Of a DNA stretch of 38,373 nt, positions 30,680-38,085 are shown piece after piece. Both the position numbers and the translations under genes were made by a program. The notes under the pieces are model-generated. The model had not been told where the DNA came from. It saw only the letters and a program-made list of their open reading frames with translations, and did no database searches. Source of the DNA: an uncultured Cetobacterium sp. (GTDB lineage Bacteria > Fusobacteriota > Fusobacteriia > Fusobacteriales > Fusobacteriaceae); NCBI RefSeq assembly GCF_945952365.1, contig NZ_CAMFHX010000025.1, positions 1 to 38,373 of the forward strand, read 5' to 3'. Within the stretch, counting starts at the first letter, position 1; the number at the start of each line of letters is the position of its first letter.

Positions 30680-30708
30680 TTGACAAGTTTTTAATTTTAG
30701 TATATACT
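30680..30708 (+). promoter_or_regulatory. Promoter of the carAB leader
   Basis: A consensus TTGACA (30680-30685), a 17-base spacer, TATACT (30703-30708). Transcription should begin near 30715, giving a leader of about 220 bases before carA. Confidence 0.88.
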
Positions 30709-30740
30709 TTTTCTCAGAGCAAAAAAAAGGAGGGTGAAAT

Positions 30741-30923
30741 ATGGTTTACAAAAACGACAGAAGAGTTAGACAAAAACAGAAAAACTATTTGTTGCTTTTA
30801 GATTTATTTATTTCATTTTCTAATAATTTATTTATATTTTTTAATTTTTTAGTTTTTAATTTTAATATTAATATAGACAGGGAATATGATTTTCATATTC
30901 CTTTTTTTATGCAAAAAATTTAG
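30741..30923 (+). CDS. Putative leader peptide of carAB
   Basis: A 60-codon ORF with a strong ribosome site (GGAGGGTG, six or so bases before ATG), about 25 bases from the predicted transcript start. The first ~15 codons are basic (DRRVRQKQK). Codons 16-45 (30786-30875) are about two-thirds U. Codons ~47-54 run through the terminator hairpin, and the TAG at 30921-30923 touches the carA ribosome site. The product is low-complexity and probably not itself functional. The ORF looks like a device for coupling translation to transcription, as in the E. coli pyrBI leader. Confidence 0.6.
   Translation: MVYKNDRRVRQKQKNYLLLLDLFISFSNNLFIFFNFLVFNFNINIDREYDFHIPFFMQKI
30881..30908 (+). terminator. Attenuator (intrinsic terminator) in front of carA
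   Basis: GGAATATGA (30881-30889) pairs with TCATATTCC (30893-30901) around a TTT loop, followed by seven T. It lies inside the leader ORF and 26 bases before the carA ATG, so it must be overcome for carAB expression. A ribosome translating the leader across this stretch would block the hairpin. Confidence 0.85.
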
Positions 30924-30933
30924 GAGGTAAAAA

Positions 30934-31986
30934 ATGAAGGGGAAGTTAATTCTTGAAAACGGAATGAGTTTCGATGGAAAAATTTTTGGAGAGCTGGGGG
31001 AAAGTGTAGGAGAACTTGTTTTTAACACAGGAATGACAGGTTACCAAGAATTACTAACAGATCCATCATACTATGGGCAAATTGTTGTTATGACTTATCC
31101 GATGGTAGGAAACTACGGAATTAATTTAGAGGATATGGAATCGGATGGAATAAAGTTAAAAGGGTTTATCATCAAAGAGGATGCAAAACTTCCAAATAAC
31201 TTTAGATGTGAAATGACTTTAGATGGGTTTTTAAGACAGTATAAAGTTGTCGGATTTAAAGGGGTAGATACAAGACACCTTACTAAAATCATAAGAGAAG
31301 AGGGAGCTATGAAAGCTCTAATAACATCAAAAGATTTAACTCAAAAAGAGATTGATGAGCATTTTGCAAAATTTAGTAATAAAGATGCAGTAGAGCAAGT
31401 TAGTACTAAAGAAAAGTATGAGATTCCAGGACCAGGAAAAAGAGTTGGGGTAATAGATTTTGGAGTTAAGAAAAATATACTTAGATCTTTTGAAGCTAGA
31501 GGAATTCACCAAATTGTTTTCCCTTGGAATGTAACAGCTGAAGAGTTACTATCTCATGATTTAGATGCAGTCTTTTTATCAAATGGACCAGGGGATCCTG
31601 CAGAGTTAACTGAAGTTATTAATGAGATTAAAAAACTAGTAGGGAAATTACCAATTGTTGGAATATGTTTAGGACATCAACTATTAGCTTGGGCTTTAGG
31701 TGGAACTACAAAAAAATTAAAATACGGACATAGAGGATGTAATCATCCAGTAAAAGATTTAGAGAAAAACAGAATATTCATAACTTCTCAAAATCATGGA
31801 TACGTTGTAGATAAAGTACCTGATTCAATGAAAGTTACACATATAAACTTAAATGATAATTCAATAGAGGGAATGAGAAGTGAAGAGCACAGAATACTAT
31901 GTGTTCAATATCACCCAGAGGCGTGGCCAGGACCAGCTGATTCAGAATATTTATTTGATGATTTCTTAGCAGTAATAGAGGGATAA
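30934..31986 (+). CDS. carA: Carbamoyl-phosphate synthase small (glutaminase) subunit
   Basis: Hydrolyses glutamine and passes ammonia to CarB for carbamoyl phosphate, the precursor of pyrimidines and arginine. The N-terminal CPSase domain has FNTGMTGYQELLTDPSY. The class I amidotransferase domain has FLSNGPGDP, the nucleophile in VGICLGHQ and the His-Glu pair in QYHPEAWPGP. The 350-residue length is typical. It has a strong GGAGG site overlapping the leader stop. It sits behind the attenuator and is followed by carB after 42 bases. Confidence 0.98.
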   Translation: MKGKLILENGMSFDGKIFGELGESVGELVFNTGMTGYQELLTDPSYYGQIVVMTYPMVGNYGINLEDMESDGIKLKGFIIKEDAKLPNNFRCEMTLDGFLRQYKVVGFKGVDTRHLTKIIREEGAMKALITSKDLTQKEIDEHFAKFSNKDAVEQVSTKEKYEIPGPGKRVGVIDFGVKKNILRSFEARGIHQIVFPWNVTAEELLSHDLDAVFLSNGPGDPAELTEVINEIKKLVGKLPIVGICLGHQLLAWALGGTTKKLKYGHRGCNHPVKDLEKNRIFITSQNHGYVVDKVPDSMKVTHINLNDNSIEGMRSEEHRILCVQYHPEAWPGPADSEYLFDDFLAVIEG

Positions 31987-32028: not shown

Positions 32029-35000
32029 ATGTTAGATAAATCGATAAAAAAGACACTGGTAATAGGATCAGGACCAATCATAATAGGTCAAGCAGCAGAG
32101 TTTGACTATTCGGGAACACAAGCATGTGAAACATTAAAAAAAGAGGGGATTGAAGTTGTATTAATAAACTCAAACCCAGCGACAATAATGACTGATAAAG
32201 CTGTTGCAGACAGAATATATATAGAGCCAATCACAGCAGAGTTTGTTGAAAAGGTAATCGCTAAAGAGAGACCTGATTCAATACTAGCTGGAATGGGGGG
32301 ACAAACAGCATTAAATATGGCTGTTGAATTAAACGATAAAGGAATCCTTGAGAAGTATGGAGTGAGAGTTATCGGAACGTCTATCGAATCTATAAAAAGA
32401 GGAGAGGATAGAGAGTTATTTAGAGAGGCAATGGATAAAATAGGTGAACCAACTATTGAAAGTAGAATAGTTGAAGATCTAGAAACAGGATTTAGAGTAG
32501 CTAAAGAGATTGGTTATCCAGTTGTTGTAAGACCTGCTTACACTTTAGGAGGAAGCGGTGGAGGAATTGCAGATAATCCTCAAGAGTTAGAAGATATTTT
32601 ACTAAAAGGTTTAAAATTATCAAGAGTTGGACAAGTTCTAATTGAAAAATCAATCTTAGGTTGGAAAGAGGTTGAGTATGAAGTAATTAGAGATAAAGAT
32701 GGAAACTGTATTACAGTTTGTAATATGGAGAATATCGATCCAGTTGGAATACATACTGGAGATTCGATAGTTGTAGCTCCGTCACAAACGTTATCTGATA
32801 GAGAGTATCAAATGTTAAGAACATCAGCTTTAAAAATAATAAATGAAATTGGAGTTGTAGGAGGATGTAATGTACAGTTCGCTCTACACCCAAAATCTTT
32901 CCAATACGCAATAATTGAGATCAATCCAAGAGTTTCAAGATCTTCTGCACTAGCTTCAAAAGCTACAGGATATCCGATAGCTAGAGTTGCTACAAGATTA
33001 TCTTTAGGATATACGTTAGATGAAGTTGTAAACGAAGTTACTGGAAAAACATTTGCATGTTTTGAACCAGCATTAGACTATATAGTTGTAAAAATTCCTA
33101 AGTGGCCATTTGATAAATTCAAAAAAGCTAATAAGAGATTAGGAACAAAAATGATGGCAACTGGAGAAGTTATGGCGATTGGAAATAACTTCGAAGCAGC
33201 ATTCTTAAAAGGTTTAAGATCTTTAGAGATTGGAACATATAACTTAGAGCATCCAGTAGTTAAAAAGATGTCTATGGAAGAGTTGAAAGAGATTGTTGTA
33301 AGACCTGATGATGAAAGAATCTTCGTTGTTGCAGAGATGTTAAGAAGAGGATATGTAAAAGAGAAGTTACAAAAGCTAACAGGAATTGATAAGTTCTTCA
33401 TGGAAAAATTAGAGTGGCTTGTAAGACAAGAGGAGCTAATGAAGAAAATGGAACTTAAAGATTTAGATGGTAAGTTCTTAAAAAATGTAAAGAAAAAAGG
33501 CTTCTCGGATAAAGGTATTGCTCAACTATTAAATGTAACTGAGCAAGATATAGCTAGAAAGAGAAGAGATTATGGAATAAAGCCAGTTTATAAAATGGTT
33601 GATACGTGTGCAGGAGAGTTCGCAGCAGATTCATCATACTTCTACTCAACTTATGATCAATTTGATGAAGTTGACGTAACTGATAATAAAAAAGTAATAG
33701 TTATTGGATCAGGACCAATTAGAATAGGTCAAGGAATTGAGTTTGACTACTGTACAGTTCATTCGATAAAAACTTTAAGAAATATGGGAATTGAAAGTAT
33801 CATTATAAATAACAATCCTGAAACTGTTTCAACAGATTTCTCGACAGCTGATAGATTATACTTCGAGCCTTTAGTAACAGAGGATGTTATGAATATAATT
33901 GATAAAGAGAAGCCAGCAGGAGTAATTATTCAATTCGGAGGGCAAACGGCAATAAAGTTAGCTAATGACCTTAGAGATAGAGGAGTTACGATTTTAGGAA
34001 CTTCGGCTGAAATGGTAGACGCAGCAGAAGATAGAGAAAAGTTTGAAGATATAATGGAAAAGTTAGATATAAAGAGACCTAAAGGAAGAGCTGTATGGGA
34101 AGTAGAAGCAGGAAAGAAAATAGCTGCTGAAGTTCAATATCCAGTTTTAGTAAGACCATCTTACGTTTTAGGTGGACAAGGAATGGAGATATGTCATGAT
34201 GAGTATAACCTTGTTAACTACTTAAAAGCTTCATTTGAAAGAGACCCTGAAAATCCAGTACTAATAGATAAATATTTAAATGGAATCGAAGTAGAAGTAG
34301 ATGCAATCTGTGATGGAGATGATATTTTAATACCAGGAGTTATGGAACATTTAGAAAGAGCAGGAATTCACTCTGGAGATTCGATAACAATATATCCTCC
34401 ACAAAATTTATATGAGGGAACAGAGCAAAAGATTGAAGAGATTACTAGAAAAATAGCGAAAGAGCTAAAAATTAAAGGTATGATGAATATTCAGTTTATA
34501 GCTTATGAAAATGAGCTTTATGTAATTGAGGTTAACCCAAGATCATCAAGAACAGTTCCTTATATAGCAAAAATATCAGGTGTACCTGTGATTGATATAG
34601 CAACAAAAGTAATTATGGGTCAAAAATTAAAGGATTTAAGTTTTGGAACTGGAATCTACAAAAAACCATCAGTTGTTGCGGTTAAAGTACCTGTATTCTC
34701 AACAGAAAAGTTATCAGGAGTAGAGGTTTCATTAGGACCAGAGATGAAATCTACAGGAGAAGTTTTAGGAGTTGGACATACAGCGGATGAAGCAATCTTC
34801 AAAGGTCTTTTAGGAGGGGGAAGAGTTCAAAACGTAAGAAACAGAAAGGTTCTTCTAACAATAAGAGACAAAGATAAAGATGAATTCTTACCAGTTGTAA
34901 AATCACTAAGAGATTTAGGATGTCAACTGTTTGCAACAGAGGGAACTCAAAAATATCTATCTGAAAATGGAATTGAAGCAACAGCAGTAAGAAAAATAAA

Positions 35001-35235
35001 TGAAGAGTCTCCTAATATCTTAGATTTATTAAAAAATAGAGAAGTAGATTTATTAATAAATACTCCAACAAAAGCAAATGATGCTCAAAGAGATGGATTC
35101 AAAATAAGAAGAACAGCAATAGAATACGGAGTAGAAGTATTAACTTCGATAGATACATTAAATGCAATAATAAAAGTTCAAGAGTTAAATGTAGATAAGA
35201 TGGATTTAGATATATTTGATATTGCCCAAATATAA
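32029..35235 (+). CDS. carB: Carbamoyl-phosphate synthase large subunit
   Basis: Makes carbamoyl phosphate from bicarbonate, ammonia and two ATP. The 1068 residues show the internal duplication: [19 protein letters not shown] at the start and [17 protein letters not shown] near 560. Each opens a pre-ATP-grasp plus ATP-grasp half ([20 protein letters not shown] and [20 protein letters not shown] in pieces). The C-terminal ~935-1068 is the MGS-like allosteric domain, which binds UMP or ornithine in E. coli. Length and motifs are complete. It has an AGGAGG site. No terminator is visible after the stop; the next promoter follows within six bases. Confidence 0.98.
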
Positions 35236-35489: not shown

Positions 35490-36974
35490 ATGAGAGAGTT
35501 TTATTCTAAAGGTAAAGATGAGATAATGGGATATTTTGATACATCTGAACAGGGATTGAAAGTCAAAGATTTAGAAAAATTAAGAGAGGAGTATGGTGAG
35601 AATCAATTAAATAGTAAGGAAAAGAAAAGCGCTTTTATAGTTTTTTTAGAGCAATTTAAAGATTTTCTAGTTATTATTCTTTTAGTAGCTGCGGCGATAT
35701 CTTTTATTTCAGGAAATAAAGAGAGTACGATAGTTATTTTAGCAGTTATTACAATGAATGCTACTTTGGGTACGGTTCAACATGTAAAAGCTGAAAAGTC
35801 ATTGGAAAGTTTGAAAAAAATGTCATCACCTAAAGCAAGAGTTATAAGAGATGGTCAAAAACAAGAGATTGATTCGAGTGAACTATTACCAGGTGATATT
35901 GTTCTTATAGAAGCTGGAGATGTCGTTCCAAGTGATGCTAGAGTGTTAGAATCGTATTCGCTTATGGTAAATGAAAGTTCTTTAACAGGAGAATCTGAAA
36001 GTGTTGAGAAAATTTCAGAGGTGATAGATGAGAGTGATTTAACTGTCGGAGATCAAAAAAATATGGTTTTCTCTGGAAGTTTAGTGACTTATGGTAGAGC
36101 AAAGTTATTAGTAACATCGATAGGAATGAAAACTGAATTGGGGAAAATTGCAGCTTTGTTAGATGAGACAGAGGATGCAATGACACCGCTACAGAAATCG
36201 TTAGAAAAATTTGGACATAAACTGTCGATAGCAATAATAGTTTTATGTATCGTTGTGTTCTTTATGAGTGTTGCCAGAGGAGTTAGTACACTTGAAGCGT
36301 TGATGTTTGCAGTAGCTTTAGCAGTAGCGGCTATTCCAGAAGCTTTAGGTTCTATTGTAACAATAGTTTTAGCGATAGGAACTCAAAAGATGGCAAAAGA
36401 GAATGCGATTATAAAAAAATTACACTCAGTTGAGTCTTTAGGGTGTGTATCTGTAATATGCTCTGATAAAACAGGGACTCTTACTCAAAATAAAATGACT
36501 GTAAAAAATCTATTTGTAGATGGAAAAGTTGTGGATGCAGAAAGTATAAAGATAGAGTCAAAAATTGAGATGGGATTACTGAGAGCTGCAATACTTTGTA
36601 GTGATGCTGTAAATGTAAATGGACAAGAGATTGGGGATCCGACAGAGATTGCACTTGTAAATATAGGTCATAAATACAATATGGTTGAAACAGATATCAG
36701 AAAAGAGTATTTAAGACTAAAAGAGTTGCCGTTTGATTCAGATAGAAAAATGATGAGTACTTTAAATAGAATCGAGGGTAGAGACTATCTTATAACAAAA
36801 GGAGCTCCGGATATTATAATTGATAAAGCTAAATATATATTGAGAGAAAATGGAGATATAGATTTAGTAGAGGCGAAAGATATAGAGAGTATAAAGGCGG
36901 CGAATATAAAATTTGCTGAATCGGGACTTAGAGTTTTAGCTTTTGGAATGAAAGAGATTGGTGTTAGAATTTGA
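35490..36974 (+). CDS. P-type ATPase, N-terminal part (actuator, M1-M4, phosphorylation site)
   Basis: The 494-residue first part of the interrupted ATPase. It has a cation-ATPase N-terminal domain (~1-65) and the actuator domain with SSLTGESESV. M3-M4 carries the ion-site segment AAIPEALGSIVT, a PEAL variant rather than the PEGLP of classic Ca2+ pumps. The phosphorylation motif is DKTGTLT with Asp326, and the nucleotide-binding domain follows to KGAPD. The start has a strong AAGGAGG. The last four residues (GVRI) are in the wrong frame. Confidence 0.85.
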   Translation: MREFYSKGKDEIMGYFDTSEQGLKVKDLEKLREEYGENQLNSKEKKSAFIVFLEQFKDFLVIILLVAAAISFISGNKESTIVILAVITMNATLGTVQHVKAEKSLESLKKMSSPKARVIRDGQKQEIDSSELLPGDIVLIEAGDVVPSDARVLESYSLMVNESSLTGESESVEKISEVIDESDLTVGDQKNMVFSGSLVTYGRAKLLVTSIGMKTELGKIAALLDETEDAMTPLQKSLEKFGHKLSIAIIVLCIVVFFMSVARGVSTLEALMFAVALAVAAIPEALGSIVTIVLAIGTQKMAKENAIIKKLHSVESLGCVSVICSDKTGTLTQNKMTVKNLFVDGKVVDAESIKIESKIEMGLLRAAILCSDAVNVNGQEIGDPTEIALVNIGHKYNMVETDIRKEYLRLKELPFDSDRKMMSTLNRIEGRDYLITKGAPDIIIDKAKYILRENGDIDLVEAKDIESIKAANIKFAESGLRVLAFGMKEIGVRI

Positions 36975-38085
36975 AGATGAAAACGAATTTATATTTATTG
37001 GTTTGATAAGTATGATTGATCCTCCGAGAGAGGAATCTAAAGAAGCTGTTCAAAACTGTATAAGAGCTGGAATAAAACCGGTTATGATAACAGGAGATTA
37101 TAAGGTTACAGCTAAAGCGATAGCAAAAGAGATCGGAATTTATAAAGATGGAGATGAAACATTAAATGGCTCTGAAGTTGAAAAGATGACAGATGAGGAG
37201 TTGCTACAACATGTTGAAAGAATCTCTGTATATGCAAGAGTATCACCAGAACATAAGATAAGAATAGTTTCAGCTTGGCAAAAGTTAGGTAAGATTTGTG
37301 CGATGACAGGGGATGGTGTGAATGATGCTCCGGCTCTGAAAAAAGCTGATGTAGGAATAGCTATGGGAATAACAGGAACAGAGGTTTCTAAAGATGCGGC
37401 TTCGATGATTTTAACTGATGATAACTTCTCAACTATAGTAAAATCAGTTGTAACAGGAAGAAATCTTTATGCAAATATAAAAAATTCGATAAGATTTTTA
37501 CTATCTGGAAATACAGCTGGAATTTTAGCGGTATTTTATGCTTCGTTGATGGGGTTACCAGTGATATTTGCACCAGTACATCTTCTGTTTATAAACCTTT
37601 TAACGGATAGTTTACCAGCGATAGCGATTGGGATGGAACCGTCACAAGGAAACGTTTTAGATGAAAAGCCAAGAGAAGCTAATGCACCGTTGTTAGATAA
37701 ACAACTATCGAGTAGAATTCTAATGGAAGGTACTTTGATTGCAGTTGTGACGATGATTGCGTTCTATTTAGGATTTGCTAAAGGAGATGCAGGATTAGGA
37801 AGTACAATGGCGTTTTCTACACTGTGTTTGGGTAGATTGTTCCATGGATTTAACTGTAGAGGAAATGGATCGGTATTAAAATTAGGATTGACGAAAAATA
37901 TGTTTAGTATATATGCATTCCTATTAGGAGCAGCGTTATTATATGTTGTATTAATTGTTCCGGCATTTCATGATATGTTTGCAGTTTCGGATTTAACTTT
38001 AATGAATTTCTTAGAAATGACAGTACTGGCATTTGCACCAACGTTGATAATACAAGTTCTGAAATATATAAAATATGATAGATAG
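36958..38085 (+). CDS. P-type ATPase, C-terminal part (hinge, M5-M10)
   Basis: The rest of the ATPase, readable from 36958 but with no convincing ribosome site of its own, so probably not a separate gene. It has IDPPRE, MITGDYKVTAKAIA and the hinge motif MTGDGVNDAPALKKADVGIAM in pieces. The M5-M6 segment NLLTDSLPAIAIGMEP carries ion-binding Asn and Asp, and four further C-terminal helices end at YIKYDR. If the frame is truly broken, neither piece alone can pump ions. Confidence 0.8.
   Translation: MVLEFEDENEFIFIGLISMIDPPREESKEAVQNCIRAGIKPVMITGDYKVTAKAIAKEIGIYKDGDETLNGSEVEKMTDEELLQHVERISVYARVSPEHKIRIVSAWQKLGKICAMTGDGVNDAPALKKADVGIAMGITGTEVSKDAASMILTDDNFSTIVKSVVTGRNLYANIKNSIRFLLSGNTAGILAVFYASLMGLPVIFAPVHLLFINLLTDSLPAIAIGMEPSQGNVLDEKPREANAPLLDKQLSSRILMEGTLIAVVTMIAFYLGFAKGDAGLGSTMAFSTLCLGRLFHGFNCRGNGSVLKLGLTKNMFSIYAFLLGAALLYVVLIVPAFHDMFAVSDLTLMNFLEMTVLAFAPTLIIQVLKYIKYDR

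Follow-up and report, generated by a model that had tools for sequence, protein, structure and literature searches.

A candidate pyrBI-type attenuator leader upstream of carAB and other pyrimidine units in Fusobacteriaceae

Introduction

The closest described counterpart of the element analysed here is the attenuator of the pyrBI operon in Escherichia coli and Salmonella, where a leader open reading frame (ORF), pyrL, extends across an intrinsic terminator to a stop codon just ahead of the gene, and where a U-containing tract precedes the terminator hairpin. In E. coli pyrBI, a run of U at the transcript start supports reiterative initiation controlled by uridine triphosphate (UTP), and in the rph-pyrE attenuator of the same bacterium a translated upstream ORF is coupled to a terminator in a UTP-dependent manner. 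To our knowledge, pyrimidine attenuation via ribosome-polymerase coupling is known only from enteric bacteria. Here, we analyse a leader that precedes carAB in a 38,373-nucleotide stretch of DNA from an uncultured Cetobacterium sp. (NZ_CAMFHX010000025.1, hereafter the window). The window corresponds to contig C25 in a genome of 2.5 Mb that has close relatives under the name Cetobacterium. Judging from its sequence, this leader probably works as a pyrBI-type, UTP-sensing transcription attenuator, and we put the probability of this reading at roughly 0.77.

A literature search among open-licence papers found no report of such a device in Fusobacteria, and the main text of a term-seq paper on F. 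nucleatum makes no mention of carA, pyrB or attenuation (PMC11005410). A first-pass annotation of the window had proposed a pyrBI-like attenuator, and the comparisons described below support that interpretation. What goes beyond it is the extension of the regulon to the pyrB operon and a symporter gene, a helix between the Shine-Dalgarno (SD) sequence of the leader and its U tract, and a conflict with the runaway transcription predicted for these bacteria.

Results

The leader and the two genes behind it are made up of the following elements.

30680..30708, + strand: sigma-70-type promoter TTGACA-17-TATACT, an 11/12 consensus match and the top scorer of a 3-kb scan
near 30716, + strand: transcript start, as inferred from the promoter position
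30728..30733, + strand: leader SD, AGGAGG
30729..30741, + strand: 5' arm of the SD helix, pairing with 30809..30821
30741..30923, + strand: leader ORF of 60 codons with an ATG start, crossing the terminator and ending within the carA SD
30786..30875, + strand: U-rich tract, the proposed zone of UTP-dependent pausing, 58/90 U (64.4%)
30809..30821, + strand: 3' arm of the SD helix (anti-SD, UAUUUCAUUUUCU), within the U tract
30879..30908, + strand: intrinsic terminator (attenuator), with an 11-bp stem at 30879-30903, a 3-nt loop and a U run to 30908
30922..30927, + strand: carA SD, AGGAGG, overlapped by the leader stop TAG at 30921-30923
30934..31986, + strand: carA, carbamoyl-phosphate synthase small subunit, by family-model match
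32029..35235, + strand: carB, carbamoyl-phosphate synthase large subunit, by family-model match

All parts that the first-pass annotation had read from this region were recovered, including a consensus promoter, a well-initiated leader ORF of 60 codons (its ATG behind AGGAGG), about 64% U over the tract, and an ORF that reads through the terminator and stops in the carA ribosome site. The terminator, which it had placed at 30881-30908, is likewise present, the one correction being that its stem begins at 30879. The folding energy of this hairpin is -11.5 kcal/mol (z -4.8), with none of 200 shuffles being equally stable, and, since the gap between terminator and carA is only 30 nucleotides (nt), there is no room for a second promoter. 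Within the tract, A accounts for 25 of the 90 positions next to the 58 occupied by U, and C and G are nearly absent.

The same arrangement recurs in nearly all of the family. In particular, a carA protein was located in all 61 Fusobacteriaceae genomes searched, a few of the matches being weak or partial, and a device stands ahead of 55 of the 65 carA copies. In each of them, an SD-led ORF of 32-71 codons is combined with a U-rich tract and a terminator, the latter mostly lying 16-80 nt ahead of the gene. Fifty-three of these were recognised by script, and two more (L025, L116), missed by the terminator script, are clear by eye. Promoters matching the consensus at 9-12 of 12 positions, with spacers of 16-17 nt, lie 29-46 nt ahead of the leader ORF in most genus representatives. 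Turning to pyrB, which was located in 56 of the 61 genomes, the device precedes 38 of the 40 copies scored, the one in the window's own genome (L163) included.

Most of the exceptions are informative. Namely, five of the ten device-less carA copies (L139-L142, L146) have the C-terminus of ArgJ directly upstream, as recognised by family match in the two copies on which it was run and by sequence similarity in the other three; one (L145) belongs to a genome without pyrB; two (L143, L144) belong to genus g3, which encodes PyrR; and both device-less pyrB copies sit downstream of carB, that is, inside a car operon. The last two carA copies (L114, L121) come from genus g12, with no PyrR over the family cut-off and no argJ recognised upstream. 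Outside Fusobacteriaceae, 15 of 16 carA copies are without the device.

Some individual copies differ in arrangement. In a genome of the same order (G079, family f4), L216 has a device-like leader with a terminator. It ends about 140 nt ahead of carA, and a second promoter may lie in the interval. Three genomes (G024, G025, G027) carry two carA copies each (L014-L016 with L133-L135), as does G036 (L115 and L116), and in all four both copies stand behind devices with different leader peptides. Finally, L046, from a metagenome-assembled genome that is labelled Clostridia and lacks PyrR, carries a U-rich leader of the fusobacterial type ahead of carA; the genome is possibly mislabelled.

In the congener G008, the second operon reads pyrB-K-D-F-C-E, and together with carA-carB, both units being device-bearing, it spans the entire pathway to uridine monophosphate (UMP). 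Here, carA, carB, pyrB, K, D, F and E were named by family models and pyrC by an amidohydrolase match and its position. What is more, the device is kept before a gene of the sodium:dicarboxylate symporter family in Cetobacterium and in one g11 genome, the copy with the device in the window's genome being L339 (G000:C1:137280-138614; symporter set L332-L342). The upstream regions of the six more distant symporter homologues showed no such leader ORF. Import of aspartate or orotate by this symporter would suit such a set. Apart from this one symporter, the device stands only at pyrimidine units, and it is apparently the chief means by which Fusobacteriaceae control the synthesis of pyrimidines de novo.

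The layout of the leader is not due to chance. Among 90-nt windows sampled from 1,488 genes of the congener, none had 60% U or more, and no gene's best window reached 63%. Over 20 genus-gene representatives, U content increases from 28% to 55% on approaching the hairpin, and their frames are open up to the hairpin with a joint P of about 1e-35 against dinucleotide shuffles, a value to be read with the genera not being fully independent. The U-richness comes mostly from the choice of amino acids, the extra synonymous bias being modest (z 0.9-2.5). When the replicon of G008 (1.75 Mb, 1,570 genes) was scanned for terminators with an SD-led ORF running into them and the hits were ranked by U content, the carA leader came first, that of the symporter fourth and that of pyrB fifth, the second and third hits resembling ordinary gene ends.

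Selection acts on the nucleotides of the leader rather than on its peptide. We compared seven equal-length Cetobacterium leaders with their carA genes and found that, in the more distant pairs, the ratio of nonsynonymous to synonymous differences (pN/pS) is mostly 0.4-1.2 in the leader as opposed to 0.02-0.05 in carA, while pS itself is about 0.14 as opposed to 0.5. It is this combination of a relaxed ratio and a low pS that leads to the above conclusion. Between genera, the peptide sequence is not conserved, and the open frame, the U tract and the hairpin persist; the peptides are in general Lys-rich first and then Phe/Leu/Ile-rich, and that of the window has no Pfam or NCBIfam match. The expectation of the first-pass annotation, that related carA leaders would keep ORF, U tract and terminator while the peptide drifts, is thus borne out, and the strong amino-acid conservation that it had named as contrary evidence is not seen.

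In addition, the leader SD can pair with part of the U tract of the same leader. This pairing, evaluated in 20 genus-gene groups, has a mean z of -0.98 (standard error 0.14) against dinucleotide shuffles; with swaps between genera as the reference, the mean z is -1.43 and -1.04. A sliding 15-nt window confines the signal to the SD. The same measure gives +0.12 (standard error 0.04) in 500 ordinary genes and -0.56, i.e., no such signal, in E. coli pyrL. Of the ten symporter leaders, which were not part of the discovery set, nine had z values between -1.7 and -3.4. In their alignment, five of the 14 helix pairs have changes on both sides, and 92% of cells are paired, as compared to 61-70% when slid; the covariation score was matched by none of 500 shuffles, which, the sequences being related, does not translate into a probability. 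The helix of the Cetobacterium carA leaders is 94.5% paired, its variation consisting of one-sided changes and a few mismatches. In the window, the helix belongs to the predicted minimum-energy fold; folding of the whole leader there gave no significant structure (z -0.72), and the helix is apparent from comparison alone. RNAalifold returned no consensus helix in the g4 sets, which are over-diverged, or in pyrB_g5. Taken together, the SD helix appears to be a layer that is absent from the E. coli pyrL model and new here.

PyrR scored over its family cut-off only in G014-G016 (genus g3) among the Fusobacteriaceae genomes searched, and none was found in 24 other Fusobacteriales genomes searched. 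In genus g3, Rfam recognises PyrR-type RNA elements next to PyrR, two above the gathering threshold and one just below it; the window leader, L001 and L163 gave no Rfam match. Control of the device by PyrR or a known riboswitch was rejected on these two grounds, namely the absence of PyrR from the device-bearing genomes searched and of Rfam matches from the leaders examined.

A different arrangement is found in Clostridia, where L050, L056, L059-L061, L063, L066, L073, L075, L085 and L092 have a hairpin resembling the PyrR loop (TTGGTCCWGNGAGGCCAGAAAGGAG) within about 330 bp upstream of carA. The 3' side of this hairpin bears the SD of a small leader ORF, which mostly runs into a strong terminator before carA, and PyrR is encoded in all eight of the genomes with such a hairpin that were tested. 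In these bacteria, PyrR might gate translation of the leader.

Downstream of carAB, the window contains a cation P-type ATPase split over two overlapping frames (35490-36974 and 36958-38085). A related ATPase ORF of 868 amino acids is intact after carB in G008, and the split in the window is either a real frameshift or an assembly error.

Discussion

How would such a leader work? When UTP is plentiful, RNA polymerase would cross the U tract fast and outrun the first ribosome on the leader ORF; with polymerase ahead, the terminator would fold and carAB would not be transcribed. When UTP is scarce, polymerase would be slowed at the many U steps, the leader ribosome would catch up and cover the 5' arm of the hairpin, and polymerase would pass into carAB. 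The SD helix would then act as a lock that silences the leader once the decision is made. Its likeliest effect is to limit leader translation to ribosomes loading before the anti-SD emerges, leaving the leader silent on finished RNAs. We infer the response to UTP, the need for translation, the direction of regulation and the role of the helix; the features that define the pyrBI-type class at the level of sequence are all present.

That said, several points weigh against UTP-sensing attenuation of this type. Fusobacteria are classed at the phylum level as runaway-transcription bacteria (PMC13323073), in which a coupling-dependent switch is unexpected. Ordinary genes of G008 (replicon C4) stop a median of 5-7 nt before terminator stems, which is the signature expected of runaway transcription. 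In E. coli, a terminator with an efficiency of about 90% dropped below 10% once the stop codon was moved to a position 5 nt ahead of it (PMC4824070). In other words, such spacing would let a coupled ribosome disarm the terminators, and therefore ribosomes in the congener normally do not do so, from which it follows that the leader should terminate by default. The long U tract may let the ribosome catch up at low UTP, and the model requires that it slow polymerase enough. What is more, the carA genes of genus g12 are without the device for no apparent reason, and most g4 and g5 leader ORFs already stop on reaching the 5' arm or within it and do not extend across the hairpin.

In a toy kinetic simulation, with polymerase moving at 60-80 nt/s and the ribosome at 45 nt/s, readthrough was 0.1-2.4% at full speed on U and 27-91% at one quarter of it, and sensitivity was lower with genome-average U in the tract. 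This illustrates feasibility and is not evidence of function. The SD gate barely changed readthrough, a further point to be set against the model; as it was not seen to sharpen the switch, we dropped the idea that it senses UTP and demoted it to a lock acting after the decision. It is nonetheless conceivable, if rather doubtful, that the leader is a two-key UTP sensor for a runaway phylum, with the U tract slowing polymerase and the anti-SD shutting the leader ribosome site on emerging. If this were true, leader translation itself would be tied to polymerase speed, and the whole de novo pyrimidine pathway, along with a precursor symporter, would run without a dedicated protein regulator.

Could the leader work by other means? 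One alternative is a protein or ligand regulator that attaches to the leader RNA and flips either the SD helix or the terminator; the U-rich ORF would then be secondary or act solely via access to the SD. The SD helix is indeed a covarying RNA structure, and the clostridial carA leaders, by linking a PyrR-loop-like hairpin to a leader-ORF SD, suggest that SD-gated attenuators of this kind may exist. However, the device-bearing genomes searched lack PyrR, no Rfam family matches the leader, no motif conserved across genera is seen beyond SD, helix and terminator, and pairing with the SD alone does not need some 90 nt of 60% U, all of which makes this alternative unlikely.

More improbable is that the leader ORF encodes a functional small basic and hydrophobic (membrane) protein with its own terminator, carA being expressed by constant readthrough. 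The Lys-rich and then Phe/Leu/Ile-rich composition would suit such a protein, and ordinary genes of the congener also end close to terminators, but the drift between genera, the relaxed pN/pS within the genus, the lack of family matches and the confinement of the ORF to pyrimidine units and one symporter all speak against it.

We consider it very improbable that the leader senses elongation speed in general or another nucleoside triphosphate, or a signal such as guanosine tetraphosphate (ppGpp), instead of UTP. In principle, the mechanism reads polymerase speed whatever its cause, and A, as would suit adenosine triphosphate (ATP), is the second commonest base of the tract; against this, U outnumbers A by 58 to 25, C and G are nearly absent, and the target genes make UMP.

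Lastly, arginine attenuation, i.e., ribosomes stalling at early Arg codons to sense arginyl-transfer RNA, which the first-pass annotation had entertained as a competing idea, we reject as hardly credible: the window does have three AGA codons near the leader start, carbamoyl phosphate also feeds arginine synthesis and the genome has argG, but congeners have codons for Lys in their place and clusters of Arg codons do not recur elsewhere, pyrB, a gene without an arginine role, stands behind the device as well, the argJ-linked carA copies are without it, no alternative antiterminator hairpin is seen (as that annotation had itself remarked), and stalling at the Arg codons would favour termination, which is the wrong direction.

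If UTP-sensing attenuation is the correct reading, a deep-branching family of medical relevance would seem to switch its pyrimidine synthesis mainly by this means, although its phylum is classed as uncoupled. A long-standing question would thereby become testable, namely whether coupling can be re-established by a metabolite-tuned pause in bacteria whose polymerase as a rule runs ahead of the ribosome. Fusobacterium genetics would also gain, according to this reading, a ready-made means of controlling expression through uracil.

How does the leader compare with known systems? As in the amino-acid attenuators of trp and his operons, the position of a ribosome would decide the fate of a terminator; unlike them, the leader has neither a run of codons for a regulating amino acid nor a hairpin that could serve as an alternative antiterminator. 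With PyrR attenuation of the pyr operons of Bacillota it shares the pathway and the predicted termination at high UMP or UTP. However, that system needs PyrR and its RNA site, found in Fusobacteriaceae only in genus g3, whose carA is without the leader device. The rph-pyrE attenuator differs in that its upstream ORF is a full gene, rph, and not a dedicated leader.

The differences from E. coli pyrBI concern the targets (carAB, pyrB-K-D-F-C-E and, in Cetobacterium, the symporter), the host, a predicted runaway-transcription bacterium, and the covarying SD helix, which has no counterpart signalled in pyrL. In addition, the inferred transcript start of the window (AGAGCAAAAAAAA) has no early U run, so that the initiation slippage of pyrBI in the narrow sense is lacking. 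We measured pyrL of strain MG1655 and the window leader by the same script. There are 29 codons ahead of the hairpin in pyrL and 45 in the window, and U makes up 28% and 60%, respectively, of the last 60 nt before it. Yet the layout to which the first-pass annotation had likened this locus holds up closely: the leader stop lies 46 nt past the hairpin base in E. coli and 44 nt past it in the window, and in both the hairpin stands 30 nt from the gene that follows, pyrB in the one and carA in the other.
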